DNA from: Paremcibacter congregatus
Lineage (GTDB): Bacteria; Pseudomonadota; Alphaproteobacteria; Sphingomonadales; Emcibacteraceae
Direction: 5' to 3'
NCBI RefSeq assembly: GCF_006385135.1
Contig: NZ_CP041025.1
Coordinates: forward strand, 1,581,501-1,645,500
DNA length: 64,000 nucleotides
Shown in pieces: positions 51,028-54,263 of this stretch (its first letter is position 1; every line of letters starts with the position of its first letter). The notes under the pieces were generated by a model that saw only the letters and a list, made by a program, of their open reading frames with translations, searched no databases and was not told where the DNA came from. The position numbers were made by a program, and so were the translations under genes.

Positions 51028-51045
51028 CACTCAAAAGCTAACACT
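51019..51045 (+). repeat. 13-bp direct duplication at the aspS stop codon
   Basis: AAAAGCTAACACT occurs at 51019-51031 and again at 51033-51045, with a single C between. The first copy contains the aspS stop (TAA at 51025-51027). Looks like a slippage product. Confidence 0.9.
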
Positions 51046-51061
51046 GGCAGTGAAACAATTC

Positions 51062-51093
51062 AGGCGGGCAGGGTGATCTCTGTCCGCCTTTTT
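51062..51093 (+). terminator. intrinsic terminator of aspS
   Basis: Stem GGCGGGCAG/CTGTCCGCC (one G-U pair), loop GGTGATCT, then five T. Confidence 0.85.
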
Positions 51094-51100
51094 ATGTCCT

Positions 51101-52108
51101 TTACGCCTTCTGGCAGTAAGCCCGGAAGGCGTCGGTGACTTTATCCATATCGTCGGATGTCACATCCCGGTGGGTCACGAGGCGGCAGGGGTTGCCGGAA
51201 CTAATCGTGATGCCCCGCTGCATCATAAAGTCCTGGAGAGGTTTCGAGGGCTGCTCCGGCGTGGTGACAAAGACCATATTGGTCTGGGCCGGGCTGACCT
51301 CCAGCCCGTCTATGTCGGCGAGACCGGCGGCAAGTTTTGTGGCATTGTCATGATCAATGGCCAGCTGGTCCACATGGTTCTCCAGCGCATAAAGCCCTGC
51401 TGCGGCCAGAATGCCCGCCTGTCGCATGCCGCCGCCGAGCATCTTGCGCCAACGCCGGGCGGCGCGGATCAGGTCATCACTTCCCACCAGCAACGACCCC
51501 ACCGGCGCGCCCAGCCCCTTGGACAGGCAAATGGATATGCTGTCGAACGGCGCGGCGATGACAGAGATATCCACCCCGAGCCCCACGGCCGCATTAAAGG
51601 CCCGCGCCCCGTCCAGATGCAGCGCCAGCCCGTGACGGTCACACAGTGCCCGTGCCTGACTGAGATACGCAAGCGGCAAAATCTTGCCACTCACGGTATT
51701 TTCCAGACAGAGCAGACGGGTGCGGGCATAATGAATGTCGTCGGGTTTGATGGCCTGGGCCACCTGGGTCAGATCAAGACTGCCGTCGGCGGAAAATTCC
51801 AGCGGTTGCGGCTGAATACTGCCCAGAACCGCCGCCCCGCCGCCTTCATAGCGGTAGGTATGGGCCTGTTGACCGACGATATATTCTTCTCCGCGCCCGC
51901 AATGGCAGAGCAGGGCCAGAAGGTTGGTCTGGGTACCGCTGGGGGCGAAGAGGGCCGCTTGCTTGCCCAGCCGCTCCGCCGCCATCTGTTCCAGCCGGTT
52001 GACCGTCGGGTCTTCGCCGTAGACATCATCCCCGACCGTCGCTGCCGCCATGACGGCCCGCATTTCTTTTGTCGGCTGGGTGACGGTATCACTGCGTAAA
52101 TCGATCAT
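51101..52108 (-). CDS. ltaE: low-specificity L-threonine aldolase
   Basis: PLP enzyme cleaving threonine (and allo-threonine) to glycine and acetaldehyde. 335 residues with [17 protein letters not shown] at the N-terminus, [16 protein letters not shown] in the middle, and the PLP lysine K197 in [15 protein letters not shown] start at 52108. Convergent with aspS; stands alone. Confidence 0.92.
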
Positions 52109-52529
52109 GGGGGGCTTTACTTTCTGTTTGGGGCGGAATCCGCTTTGCTGTGAAAGAGGCGGCGTAATTTTGTCTTATGTCAACAGCTTATCACGTGGGG
52201 AAGCGGTGTCACAAGAGGATATACCATCCTTATACCCTCTGCATTTTCGATCACCCCGGACCCGGGGCGGCAGCGACGGAGACGATCCGGGGTCCAGAGA
52301 TTTGGACAAGCCTCCGTCAGAGGCGAAGACATCATTGTTTTCTGGATTCCGCGTCGTAACCTGCCTACGGCAGGGCACGGAATGACGGGGGAAATCACCT
52401 TTCACGCCGGGCCGGGTGCAGTGGGGTATAACCTCAGGGTAGGTCCGGGATAGGGAAAAATAAACGGTGACGGGGGCCTTTTCCTATCCTATCATGAGCC
52501 CGGGATTTAACAAACGGGATAAAATAACC
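52109..52529. other. non-coding spacer with repeat elements
   Basis: 421 bases between ltaE and the DsrE-family gene. The centre is occupied by palindromic repeat copy 3. The remainder shows no convincing ORF, RNA gene or promoter on inspection. Confidence 0.5.
52250..52394. repeat. palindromic elements (dispersed repeat family, copy 3)
   Basis: Unit one, 52250-52296, pairs CACCCCGGA with TCCGGGGTC. Unit two, 52342-52394, is CTGGATTCCG with CGGAATGACGGGGGAAA after a GC-rich loop. The second unit shares the GGATTCC...GGAATGACGGGG scaffold with copies near 8406 and 36763. The outer ends of the pair are again roughly inverted. Confidence 0.55.
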
Positions 52530-53093
52530 ATGAAAATACGCCACCTTATGCCAAAAATTGCCTTGTGGGGATACCTGTTAGGAGCCAGTCTGACCTCTCC
52601 GGTTTGGGCGGGGGAGAGCGCCTTCCAGGCTGGACCGGTCTTCCCGACCTTTGGCAAGATCGCGCCGGTGGTGTCGGATATGGCCGTCACCACCGAAACC
52701 CGCTTGCAGGTGGCCTTCGATGTCGGCAAGGCCGGGGACGTGGGGAAGCTGAACCGCACCCTGAACAGTGCGGCCCGTTTTATCAATATGCATGCGGCAG
52801 CCGGGGTACCTGTGGACAATATCAAGGTCGCTGTTGTGGTGCATGGCGGCGCGTCCTTTGACCTCACACGGGACAGTCGCTACGGACAGAAGAAGGACGG
52901 GGCCCAAAACGCCAACCGGGCCGCCATCAAGGCTCTGACGGAGAAGGGGGTGGAGATATATCTTTGCGGCCAGTCCGCCGCCTATCATGATATTAAAAAA
53001 ATAGATTTGCTGCCCGGCGTAAACCTCGCCTTGTCTGCCATGACCGCCCATGCCCTGCTGCAACAGAAGGGCTATACACTTAATCCTTTTTGA
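52530..53093 (+). CDS. exported DsrE-family protein
   Basis: 187 residues. N-terminal signal peptide (MKIRHLMPKIALWGYLLGAS, then LTSPVWAGES), so probably periplasmic. The mature part has the DsrE/DsrF-like fold pattern: LQVAFDVGKAGDVGKLNRTL, VAVVVHGGASFDLT and a conserved cysteine in EIYLCGQSAAYHD. DsrE proteins carry persulfide sulfur in some pathways; periplasmic members have unknown roles. I chose the ATG at 52530 since it begins the signal peptide. No linked sulfur genes are in the window. Confidence 0.8.
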   Translation: MKIRHLMPKIALWGYLLGASLTSPVWAGESAFQAGPVFPTFGKIAPVVSDMAVTTETRLQVAFDVGKAGDVGKLNRTLNSAARFINMHAAAGVPVDNIKVAVVVHGGASFDLTRDSRYGQKKDGAQNANRAAIKALTEKGVEIYLCGQSAAYHDIKKIDLLPGVNLALSAMTAHALLQQKGYTLNPF

Positions 53094-53116
53094 GGGGGCG
53101 GGGCGCAGGGTTTTGT

Positions 53117-53236
53117 GAGGATATCTTCAACGATTTATTTGCGCGGTATGGAGATAATGTACAATTGAGATCAAGTATTCGCTATGCAATCGCAGATATA
53201 GATCTGAATTGGTTTGGAAAAGAACTTACAAAATAA
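53117..53236 (+). pseudogene. possible 3' remnant of a lost gene
   Basis: 39 open codons ending in TAA, reading EDIFNDLFARYGDNVQLRSS, then IRYAIADIDLNWFGKELTK. There is no start codon in frame. Composition is AT-rich, unlike the preceding DsrE gene, so this may be the tail of an acquired gene whose front was deleted. Family not recognised. Chance cannot be excluded at this length. Confidence 0.3.
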
Positions 53237-53301
53237 ATTGATGTGGGGGAAGTTAATAGATAATTTTGGAATGAGCCAATATATTTCCTACTAATCCTCC
53301 C

Positions 53302-53329
53302 TTGACAACCACAACCTATCCGTTATAAG
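53302..53329 (+). promoter_or_regulatory. strong sigma70-type promoter of the C4-like leader
   Basis: Consensus -35 TTGACA (53302-53307), a 16-base spacer and -10 TATAAG (53324-53329). Predicted transcription start near 53336, just before the structured region. It is one of the clearest promoters in the window. Confidence 0.7.
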
Positions 53330-53336
53330 ATTTTCC

Positions 53337-53423
53337 TGCATCGGCAAAATCCGGTGTCGGGATTGGTACCCCGTACAAGCTACAGGCGTCCAGACATGCG
53401 CCTCTTTAGACGCGTGTTTTTTT
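53337..53423 (+). ncRNA. C4-like antisense RNA (phage-type regulatory RNA)
   Basis: The region starts just after the promoter and ends with competing hairpins (AGGCG/CGCCT and GCGTC/GACGC) and a run of seven T at 53417-53423. Two stretches are complementary to the leader further downstream: TTGGTACCCCGTAC (53363-53376) against GTACGGTAGTACCAA (53485-53499), and CTACAGG (53380-53386) against CCTGTAG (53479-53485). This order, with two antisense stretches in a short RNA upstream of their targets in the same transcript, is the hallmark of phage C4 RNAs, which repress translation of an antirepressor. The family assignment is by architecture and recall and has not been checked with a covariance model. 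Confidence 0.55.
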
Positions 53424-53566
53424 ACGACCATTTGTTCTATGGCCGGGGGCGTTCAGGCACCCGTTAGGGTGGCCGTCTCCTGTAGTACGGTAGTACCAAC
53501 CTGTTCGTTCCCGGTCACCAGATTTGGTACTCTGGCTCCGGGGTGATTTTAACTACAGGAACTATC
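53424..53566 (+). promoter_or_regulatory. structured leader targeted by the C4-like RNA
   Basis: Contains CACCCGTTAGGGTG (hairpin, 53459-53472), the two target stretches complementary to the upstream RNA (53479-53499), and a further hairpin TCACCAGA/TCTGG...GGTGA (53515-53545) just ahead of the ACAGGA ribosome binding site at 53555-53560. Leaders of this layout precede small phage ORFs in other bacteria. Confidence 0.45.
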
Positions 53567-53662
53567 ATGACAGAAAAGCGCACTAAATTTTGCCTCCCCC
53601 TTTGTATATCCACCTGCCGGCAGTCCATAAATGTCGTGATTGAGTTCGCGGATAAAGCGTAG
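53567..53662 (+). CDS. 31-residue ORF under the C4-like leader
   Basis: ATG at 53567 with AGGA seven bases upstream, ending TAG at 53660-53662. Peptide MTEKRTKFCLPLCISTCRQS, then INVVIEFADKA. Basic N-terminus and three cysteines. Not recognised. It is either a real micropeptide, the truncated start of a longer phage gene, or a leader ORF. A strong terminator follows 20 bases later, so in its present form the transcript encodes only this. Confidence 0.4.
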   Translation: MTEKRTKFCLPLCISTCRQSINVVIEFADKA

Positions 53663-53682
53663 GCGCGGCAAGTCTAACCTTG

Positions 53683-53714
53683 GGGAGCGGAGGGTTTGTT
53701 TTCCGCTCCCTTTT
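53683..53714 (+). terminator. intrinsic terminator after the 31-codon ORF
   Basis: Perfect 9-bp stem GGGAGCGGA/TCCGCTCCC with a 10-base loop, followed by four T. Confidence 0.85.
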
Positions 53715-53747
53715 CAGGATGAGAGCTAAAGTATTAGGGGAAATGTC

Positions 53748-54005
53748 ATGAGTGACCATGACCGGGTGAGGGCGCAGCTCAAGGCTATCGATAGGCATAT
53801 CGGGGCGCGGTTAAGGTTGATCCGCACCCGGCGCGAAATCAGTCAGTCGGAACTTGGATCTTATCTGGGGGTGAGTTTTCAGCAGGTGCAGAAATATGAA
53901 CAGGGTCGCAACCGGCTATCGGCAAGCCGCCTGCTGCTGGTCTCGAAATGCTGTCATGTGCCGCTGCATTTTTTCTTTCAGAGGATGAAGACAGAGAGCG
54001 GGTAA
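53748..54005 (+). CDS. Xre-family helix-turn-helix regulator
   Basis: 85 residues, essentially one HTH_3 domain: GARLRLIRTRREISQSELGS, with YLGVSFQQVQKYEQGRNRLS as the recognition helix region. The SFQQVQKYEQG pattern is typical of small alphaproteobacterial Xre proteins. A strong AGGGGA ribosome binding site precedes the ATG. It lies 33 bases after the preceding terminator, so its own promoter or read-through is needed. It may regulate the upstream leader, by position only. Confidence 0.85.
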   Translation: MSDHDRVRAQLKAIDRHIGARLRLIRTRREISQSELGSYLGVSFQQVQKYEQGRNRLSASRLLLVSKCCHVPLHFFFQRMKTESG

Positions 54006-54024
54006 ACGCCAGACACACAAAAAC

Positions 54025-54045
54025 AGGCATGGGATTCCCATGCCT
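54025..54045. terminator. bidirectional terminator
   Basis: AGGCATGGG/CCCATGCCT with loop ATT between the convergent Xre and 54075-54263 genes. T-rich on the minus-strand side (GTTTTTGTG) and short T-run on the plus side. Confidence 0.7.
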
Positions 54046-54074
54046 TTCCTTGCATTATATCAGTTGTAAGAAGA

Positions 54075-54263
54075 TTAGACCTTGATATCGATCTTGTTGC
54101 CAAGGTTCGGGCCGGTTTCGGCTTCGACTTCTTTGCGTTCAACCGTTGTATCATCGGCTTGCTTGGCCAGAATTTCCCGGACAGAAACCGTATTTTCCTG
54201 ACTGCTGCTGCGGTCGACCTGAACTTGGGTAGACGCACTACTTGCGGACGCTATATCAACCAT
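54075..54263 (-). CDS. small hypothetical protein, 62 residues
   Basis: ATG at 54263 with AAGGATC at good spacing. Hydrophilic, Ser-, Glu- and Val-rich (MVDIASASSASTQVQVDRSS, then QENTVSVREILAKQADDT), no membrane segment or cysteine. Not recognised. The clear ribosome binding site and convergent terminator support expression. Its promoter would lie in the AT-rich 54264-54440 region, shared with the divergent TPR/SPOR gene. Confidence 0.6.
   Translation of the reverse strand: MVDIASASSASTQVQVDRSSSQENTVSVREILAKQADDTTVERKEVEAETGPNLGNKIDIKV

Follow-up and report, generated by a model that had tools for sequence, protein, structure and literature searches.

The window analysed here comprises 64 kb of the forward strand of Paremcibacter congregatus (GCF_006385135.1, NZ_CP041025.1:1,581,501-1,645,500) and contains a cassette of about 0.7 kb, in which a promoter is followed by an isrK RNA, a C4 RNA, a 31-codon open reading frame (relay ORF), a terminator hairpin and the gene for a small Xre protein (Table 1). 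In an Rfam scan of the window, isrK and C4 were the sole families that reached their curated scores. A match to c4-a1b1 (RF03163) overlies the start of isrK with 36.9 bits, below the gathering score of 46.7; gammaproteobacteria and phages are listed as hosts of this motif, and Proteobacteria and phages as hosts of c4 RNA, in the accessible part of the survey by Weinberg et al. (PMC2864571). By eye, TATAAG at 53324-53329 can be recognized as an alternative -10 box with a 16-nt spacer, and no conserved operator was found at the cassette promoter. The base of the C4 stem carries GGC in the window copy; for C4-like sRNAs, the accessible text on Acinetobacter baumannii gives GGW as RNase P cut site, with GGC in two members (PMC5320573).

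Table 1. Features of the cassette, with positions counted from the first nucleotide of the window
Feature	Position	Strand	Evidence
Sigma-70-type promoter	53302-53331	+	10/12 matches in promoter scan (TTGACA at 53302, TAAGAT ending at 53331, 18-nt spacer); 12/12 at the equivalent site of copy 2
isrK RNA (RF01394)	53338-53422	+	60.2 bits, gathering score 50; fold of isrK alone unremarkable against shuffles (z -1.5)
Hairpin CGGG/CCCG, loop shows a1	53358-53373	+	c4-a1b1 model match, short folds
a1, TTGGTAC	53363-53369	+	pairs with a'
b1, CTACAGG	53380-53386	+	pairs with b'
Terminator hairpin T1 and T-run, 3' end of isrK	53393-53418	+	predicted fold; absent from the list of a generic terminator scan
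C4 antisense RNA (RF01695)	53435-53522	+	54.4 bits, gathering score 45; folds better than shuffled sequence (z -4.0)
b' of C4, CCTGTAG	53479-53485	+	word pairing
a' of C4, GTACCAA	53493-53499	+	word pairing
Hairpin CCAGA/TCTGG, loop shows a2	53518-53535	+	short fold
a2, TTGGTAC	53524-53530	+	pairs with a'
b2, CTACAGG, at Shine-Dalgarno/ribosome-binding site of relay ORF	53553-53559	+	word pairing
Relay ORF, 31 codons	53567-53662	+	translation, copy comparison
Terminator hairpin T2, then T-run	53682-53711	+	terminator scan, fold
Xre/HTH_3 protein, 85 aa	53748-54005	+	Pfam HTH_3, 2e-10

The original prediction had described a near-consensus promoter, a transcript of some 85 bases terminated by a hairpin with T-run, two stretches complementary to a second leader, and a 31-codon ORF, a terminator and an Xre regulator further downstream. 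The promoter and the order of the downstream elements were confirmed, both complementary stretches contain exact 7-nt complements (a1 with a', b1 with b'), and the predicted isrK RNA matches the proposed transcript in length and 3' end. The C4-type layout was upheld by the covariance model, but the roles of the two RNA elements had been exchanged: since a2 and b2 are complementary to a' and b' as well, the C4 RNA corresponds to the second element, and isrK/a1b1, the first, is one of its two targets, the other of which (a2/b2) had been overlooked. Naming phage P4 beside P1 and P7 as a user of C4 was loose, since the P4 immunity RNA (CI) is an antisense RNA different from C4.

Genes between 47.9 and 58.6 kb of the window encode threonine aldolase, DsrE and TPR/SPOR proteins according to profile matches, and RNase D, AspRS, a chorismate-mutase-like protein, enoyl-CoA hydratase and a GGDEF protein as read from the translations. 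No integrase, capsid, tail or replication gene is among them, as had been predicted, and judged by these neighbours the cassette's designation as an orphan appears to hold. In 16 of 18 relatives in which both AspRS and a small reverse ORF (54075-54263 in the window) were present (L006-L023; L024 shows neither), the two are separated by 50-179 bp, and in the other two (L015, L016) by 637 and 906 bp. The corresponding gap in the window spans 3.05 kb (51028-54074) and holds the genes for threonine aldolase and the DsrE-like protein as well as the C4 cassette. The cassette has been added at a convergent intergenic site. The one DNA-level match of the locus to plasmids is a 60-base piece in an HTH gene.

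Pairing of the C4 RNA with two targets

In the window copy, each of the four word combinations (a'/a1, a'/a2, b'/b1 and b'/b2) forms 7 of 7 pairs, and CCGTAC/GTACGG provides a further exact complement inside the originally predicted stretches that hold a1 and a' (53363-53376 and 53485-53499). By its score and by this four-word complementarity, with b2 at the ribosome-binding site, the cassette belongs to the C4 family, and the predicted elements follow the canonical a1b1 - C4 - a2b2 plan. Chance complementarity was rejected as explanation because two Rfam families occur in the right order and because of a word permutation test. Among 11 loci (the window, copy 2 from the same genome, copy B of genome G095 from the same genus and eight others in the class), the own 7-mer words were fully paired in 11 loci for a'/a1, 11 for a'/a2, 9 for b'/b1 and 11 for b'/b2, compared with 9, 9, 7 and 10 of 110 swapped combinations, and for each pairing none of 200,000 permutations equalled the observed total. 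The words for this test were picked by hand at corresponding positions of 11 out of 12 loci, leaving out G095 copy A, which is decayed and has its a1 past the contig end.

The C4 pairing covaries between loci. In an 11-row alignment, consisting of the permutation set minus L002 plus G095 copy A, 98.7% of the cells of the a'-a2 helix are paired and 4 of its 7 pairs show changes on both sides. Over the whole structure, 83.5% of the cells pair compared with 73.9% in shuffles, and 0 of 500 shuffles reached the observed value. The inner columns 18-22 of the long C4 stem are mostly unpaired outside the window copy and its nearest kin because the structure of the window copy was projected onto the other rows. 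In a repeat with six fresh loci, again with a' and b' words chosen by hand, a1 and a2 were fully paired in 6/6 loci each, b1 in 4/6 and b2 in 5/6. The level for single a words was matched by 0.2-4.8% of shuffled zones and that for fully paired b words by 3-12% of shuffles, so that only the summed pairing is telling in the six-locus repeat. A control with whole arms separated own from swapped combinations weakly (19.0 vs 15.9 upstream and 20.8 vs 15.3 downstream). In short folds, a1 was placed wholly or partly in a hairpin loop in 11/11 loci and a2 in 11/12, in agreement with presentation of both words to the C4 RNA.

Further cassettes and C4 loci

A second complete cassette (copy 2; L034, L117) was found in the isrK search of the class at position 501399 of the same genome, 1.13 Mb from the window cassette. 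It contains C4, a2/b2, a 31-codon ORF, a terminator and the gene for an 80-aa Xre protein, and can be aligned with the window copy from the -35 box through the end of Xre, whereas their short flanking sequences look unrelated. C4 of copy 2 scores 51.5 bits (above 45) and isrK 43.8 bits (below 50), and all pairings are kept but one base pair. The gene that follows matches NeuB just under the cut-off of that model. Two of 15 other genomes of the genus contain C4. One of them, G095, has a tandem pair of cassettes adjoining clpB, in which copy B is complete, with an isrK of 58.8 bits (above the gathering score), a 33-codon ORF, a terminator and a 152-aa Xre protein (from the ATG at L136:923). Copy A (L136:1-300) is decayed: its C4 is almost unchanged, and the Shine-Dalgarno sequence, an a2 pair, a b2 pair, the relay frame and Xre are lost. 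In the other, G092, C4 is followed by two ORFs and a Bro-N-like antirepressor (read from the translation). Of the two origins that had originally been offered, a domesticated switch or the last trace of a satellite element, the latter is made less likely than a compact resident cassette by the complete copy 2 at 1.13 Mb distance and by the tandem pair in G095.

A third C4 of the same genome, detected at 1407222 with a model built from 11 C4-plus-target sequences (R1), lies in a prophage, since an integrase, an internal virion protein and an Ant antirepressor are encoded within the same 20 kb. Its target in this region (L171, G000:C1:1397300-1417200) is an ORF of 98 aa, or 107 aa from an earlier start, which adjoins a serine recombinase gene (read from the translation).

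RNA searches miss true C4 loci and all genome counts are therefore lower bounds: RF01695 detected one C4 in the own genome compared with three by R1 and missed G095 in the order, and a fast RNA scan listed no C4 in L117 or L173, although both have one. Searching with RF01695 gave at least 4/196 genomes of the order, and searching with R1 at least 3/40 relatives, 7/296 genomes of the order, 5/385 of the class and 3/32 of the family. isrK was found in at least 9/385 genomes of the class; C4 adjoins it in 4, and one match overlaps a tRNA gene. The cassette with a 31-aa-type ORF is known from two genomes only, the own (twice) and G095, which likewise represents a lower bound.

Relay ORF, T2 and Xre as the candidate output

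In all three complete cassettes, start and frame of the relay ORF are kept. Differences between the three pairs of copies are spread about evenly over the codon positions (7/11/11, 11/10/15 and 14/14/14), as would be expected if translation of the ORF outweighs its product. The peptide itself may nevertheless have a role, as suggested by its conserved end IEF.D.A and by pN/pS values of 0.65, 0.49 and 0.80 from the small sample of three complete cassettes. A two-row peptide HMM matched 64 of 296 genomes of the order at E up to 0.1, among which only G095 stands out besides the own genome (1e-6; next best 0.001). The peptide was not found in viral contigs. That the ORF encodes a widespread protein was rejected, as only the own genome and G095 stand out in the HMM searches of order and class.

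In each of the three complete cassettes, a T2-type terminator hairpin separates the relay ORF from Xre. It starts 16-21 nt past the stop codon of the relay ORF, a distance at which a terminating ribosome would not obviously mask it, and leaves 33-36 nt to the start of Xre. In the window, 85 nt and T2 separate the two reading frames. For copy 2, a short fold of the sequence behind the relay stop favours a pairing other than T2, although the terminator scan lists T2. No conserved anti-terminator was found by eye between relay ORF and T2, and no forward promoter between relay ORF and Xre in a scan of the window copy and copy 2. Transcripts that start at the isrK promoter and read through are most likely required for Xre expression. 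Between window copy and copy 2, Xre differs at 25/17/45 first, second and third codon positions (pN/pS 0.39); since the changes are mostly at third positions, Xre is a maintained protein under purifying selection. The Xre tree did not resolve the branching. Xre as a marker of the cassette was rejected because the 80 loci with near Xre relatives contained no C4 (R1, E up to 1).

The cassette is probably a phage-derived, chromosomally resident C4/IsrK RNA switch with Xre as its output. Its RNA parts are well supported, whereas the link to Xre is proposed as follows. The single promoter would yield isrK, which is stopped at T1, and read-through past T1 would give a long precursor of C4, which in this family is released by RNase P as an RNA of about 77 nt. 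C4 would then meet a2 loop to loop as well as b2 at the ribosome-binding site and block translation of the relay ORF; with the relay ORF untranslated, transcription would end at or before T2 and no Xre would be made. Free isrK, carrying a1 and b1, would titrate C4, so that the relay ORF is translated and Xre rises. In phage P1, ant is subject to a polar effect when C4 blocks icd. Rho-dependent polarity in the cassette is assumed by analogy with P1 icd/ant, and either polarity or termination at T2 could couple the relay ORF to Xre.

In P1 and P7, as in the cassette, the C4 fold includes a' and b', its targets lie on either side of it with b2 at a ribosome-binding site, and the short ORF icd precedes the effector as the 31-codon ORF precedes Xre. 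The effector of these phages is the antirepressor Ant, whereas Xre takes this place here, in a cassette that is chromosomal and duplicated with different a' words. Instead of an antirepressor, C4 is followed by the 31-aa ORF and then the HTH_3 gene; an antirepressor as target characterizes the phage examples and is not part of the RF01695 model. As described in the accessible part of its report, the system IsrK - orf45 - anrP (RF01394) of the Salmonella prophage Gifsy-1 shares with the cassette an isrK with its own terminator, a read-through transcript, a downstream complement, and a short relay ORF with poorly conserved amino acids before a regulatory gene (PMC4825925). When IsrK was supplied in trans, translation of anrP increased 114- to 171-fold in four assays, and activation of anrP runs via translation of orf45, in which nucleotides but not amino acids are conserved (PMC4825925). 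In contrast to the cassette, which has no phage, no antirepressor and a terminator between relay ORF and Xre, Gifsy-1 is a prophage in which orf45 overlaps the antirepressor gene anrP (PMC4825925). Group 1 C4-like sRNAs of A. baumannii, according to the accessible text, also occur several times in one chromosome with different a' words, and they were proposed to act either on phages or on newly acquired targets in the bacterium; that study describes sRNAs, whereas here the whole cassette is duplicated, with both targets, relay ORF and regulator (PMC5320573).

A literature search mostly of freely accessible journals retrieved neither an isrK-C4-Xre cassette nor a C4 in an alphaproteobacterial chromosome. 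C4 systems are already known as immunity switches of phages that control antirepressors; what appears to be new is a phage-free C4/IsrK cassette with relay ORF, terminator and Xre, duplicated with different recognition words. Such a complete cassette outside a phage would show that phage RNA logic was adopted as a bacterial regulatory part.

Recognition words and alternative functions

The a' word GTACCAA is present in the window copy and G095 copy A, and GTGCAAA in copy 2 and G095 copy B. In G095, the C4 RNAs of copies A and B differ by two bases, both within a'. The three C4 RNAs of the own genome differ in a' as well; computed binding to their own targets amounts to -21.7, -22.7 and -23.0 kcal/mol, compared with -8.5 to -16.3 kcal/mol for cross-binding. 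Copy 2 and the prophage C4 share the b' core, and only a' therefore tells these two apart. The recurrence of the same pair of a' words, observed in two genomes only, may reflect selection, or shared ancestry with conversion. It is possible, and we suggest it tentatively, that the cassette represents a regulatory gene with its own, self-contained RNA control, which multiplies within chromosomes and whose duplicates are kept apart by paired word changes. The copies would then form a natural set of insulated antisense switches whose output is a DNA-binding protein of the chromosome and not an antirepressor of a phage. Duplicates with different words offer a small natural test of joint specificity change in an antisense RNA and its two targets.

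Alternatively, orphan C4 RNAs could confer superinfection immunity by silencing in trans the antirepressors of incoming phages with the same a2/b2, Xre being a passenger or a second immunity factor. C4 of P1 and P7 acts in this way, the different a' words within the own genome would fit, and immunity is one of the two roles proposed, in the accessible text, for the multicopy C4-like sRNAs of A. baumannii (PMC5320573). A similar C4 core was found in six viral contigs, where other genes follow it, mostly Rha-like (read from the translations); the a' word of copy 2 recurs in L187, and the b' word of the window copy in L189 and L192. However, none of the six holds both words of either orphan copy, the locus has no DNA-level match to phage records, and immunity would not account for three cassettes having retained the relay ORF, T2 and Xre together, which renders this function unlikely.

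It is also improbable that the cassette is a decaying remnant of a phage early region with no present role. In prophages of the same order (G024, i.e. L121, and G085, i.e. L123), C4 is followed by an ORF and by an Xre gene belonging to the same broad family, and G095 copy A shows the losses listed above. In contrast, the pairings of the window copy and copy 2 are retained as described above, their frames are open, and Xre has changed mostly at third positions. In these prophages, different from the cassette, phage genes adjoin (a tail protein was found in L123) and the ORF has about 150 aa without likeness to the 31-aa peptide; they are plausible as the kind of source from which the cassette came. 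A third alternative, in which the 31-aa peptide is an Icd-like or toxin-like effector held down by C4 and controlled by Xre, is highly doubtful: 12 of 31 residues are invariant in the three copies and icd occupies the equivalent position in P1, but purifying selection is not clear, Pfam gave no match, and a three-row HMM (E up to 0.001) found no relative outside the own genome in a search of 298 class genomes.

In the viral contigs L190 and L191, a Rha-like gene with a promoter of its own and an isrK-like leader is located downstream of C4, and the a' word of C4 fails to match this leader. The ORFs of about 150 aa directly behind C4 in prophages (L123:5034-5507 and a 147-aa ORF in L004/L121) are alike by eye. 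The L123 protein had no match among PHROG or NCBIfam models, and these proteins possibly represent a new kind of antirepressor.
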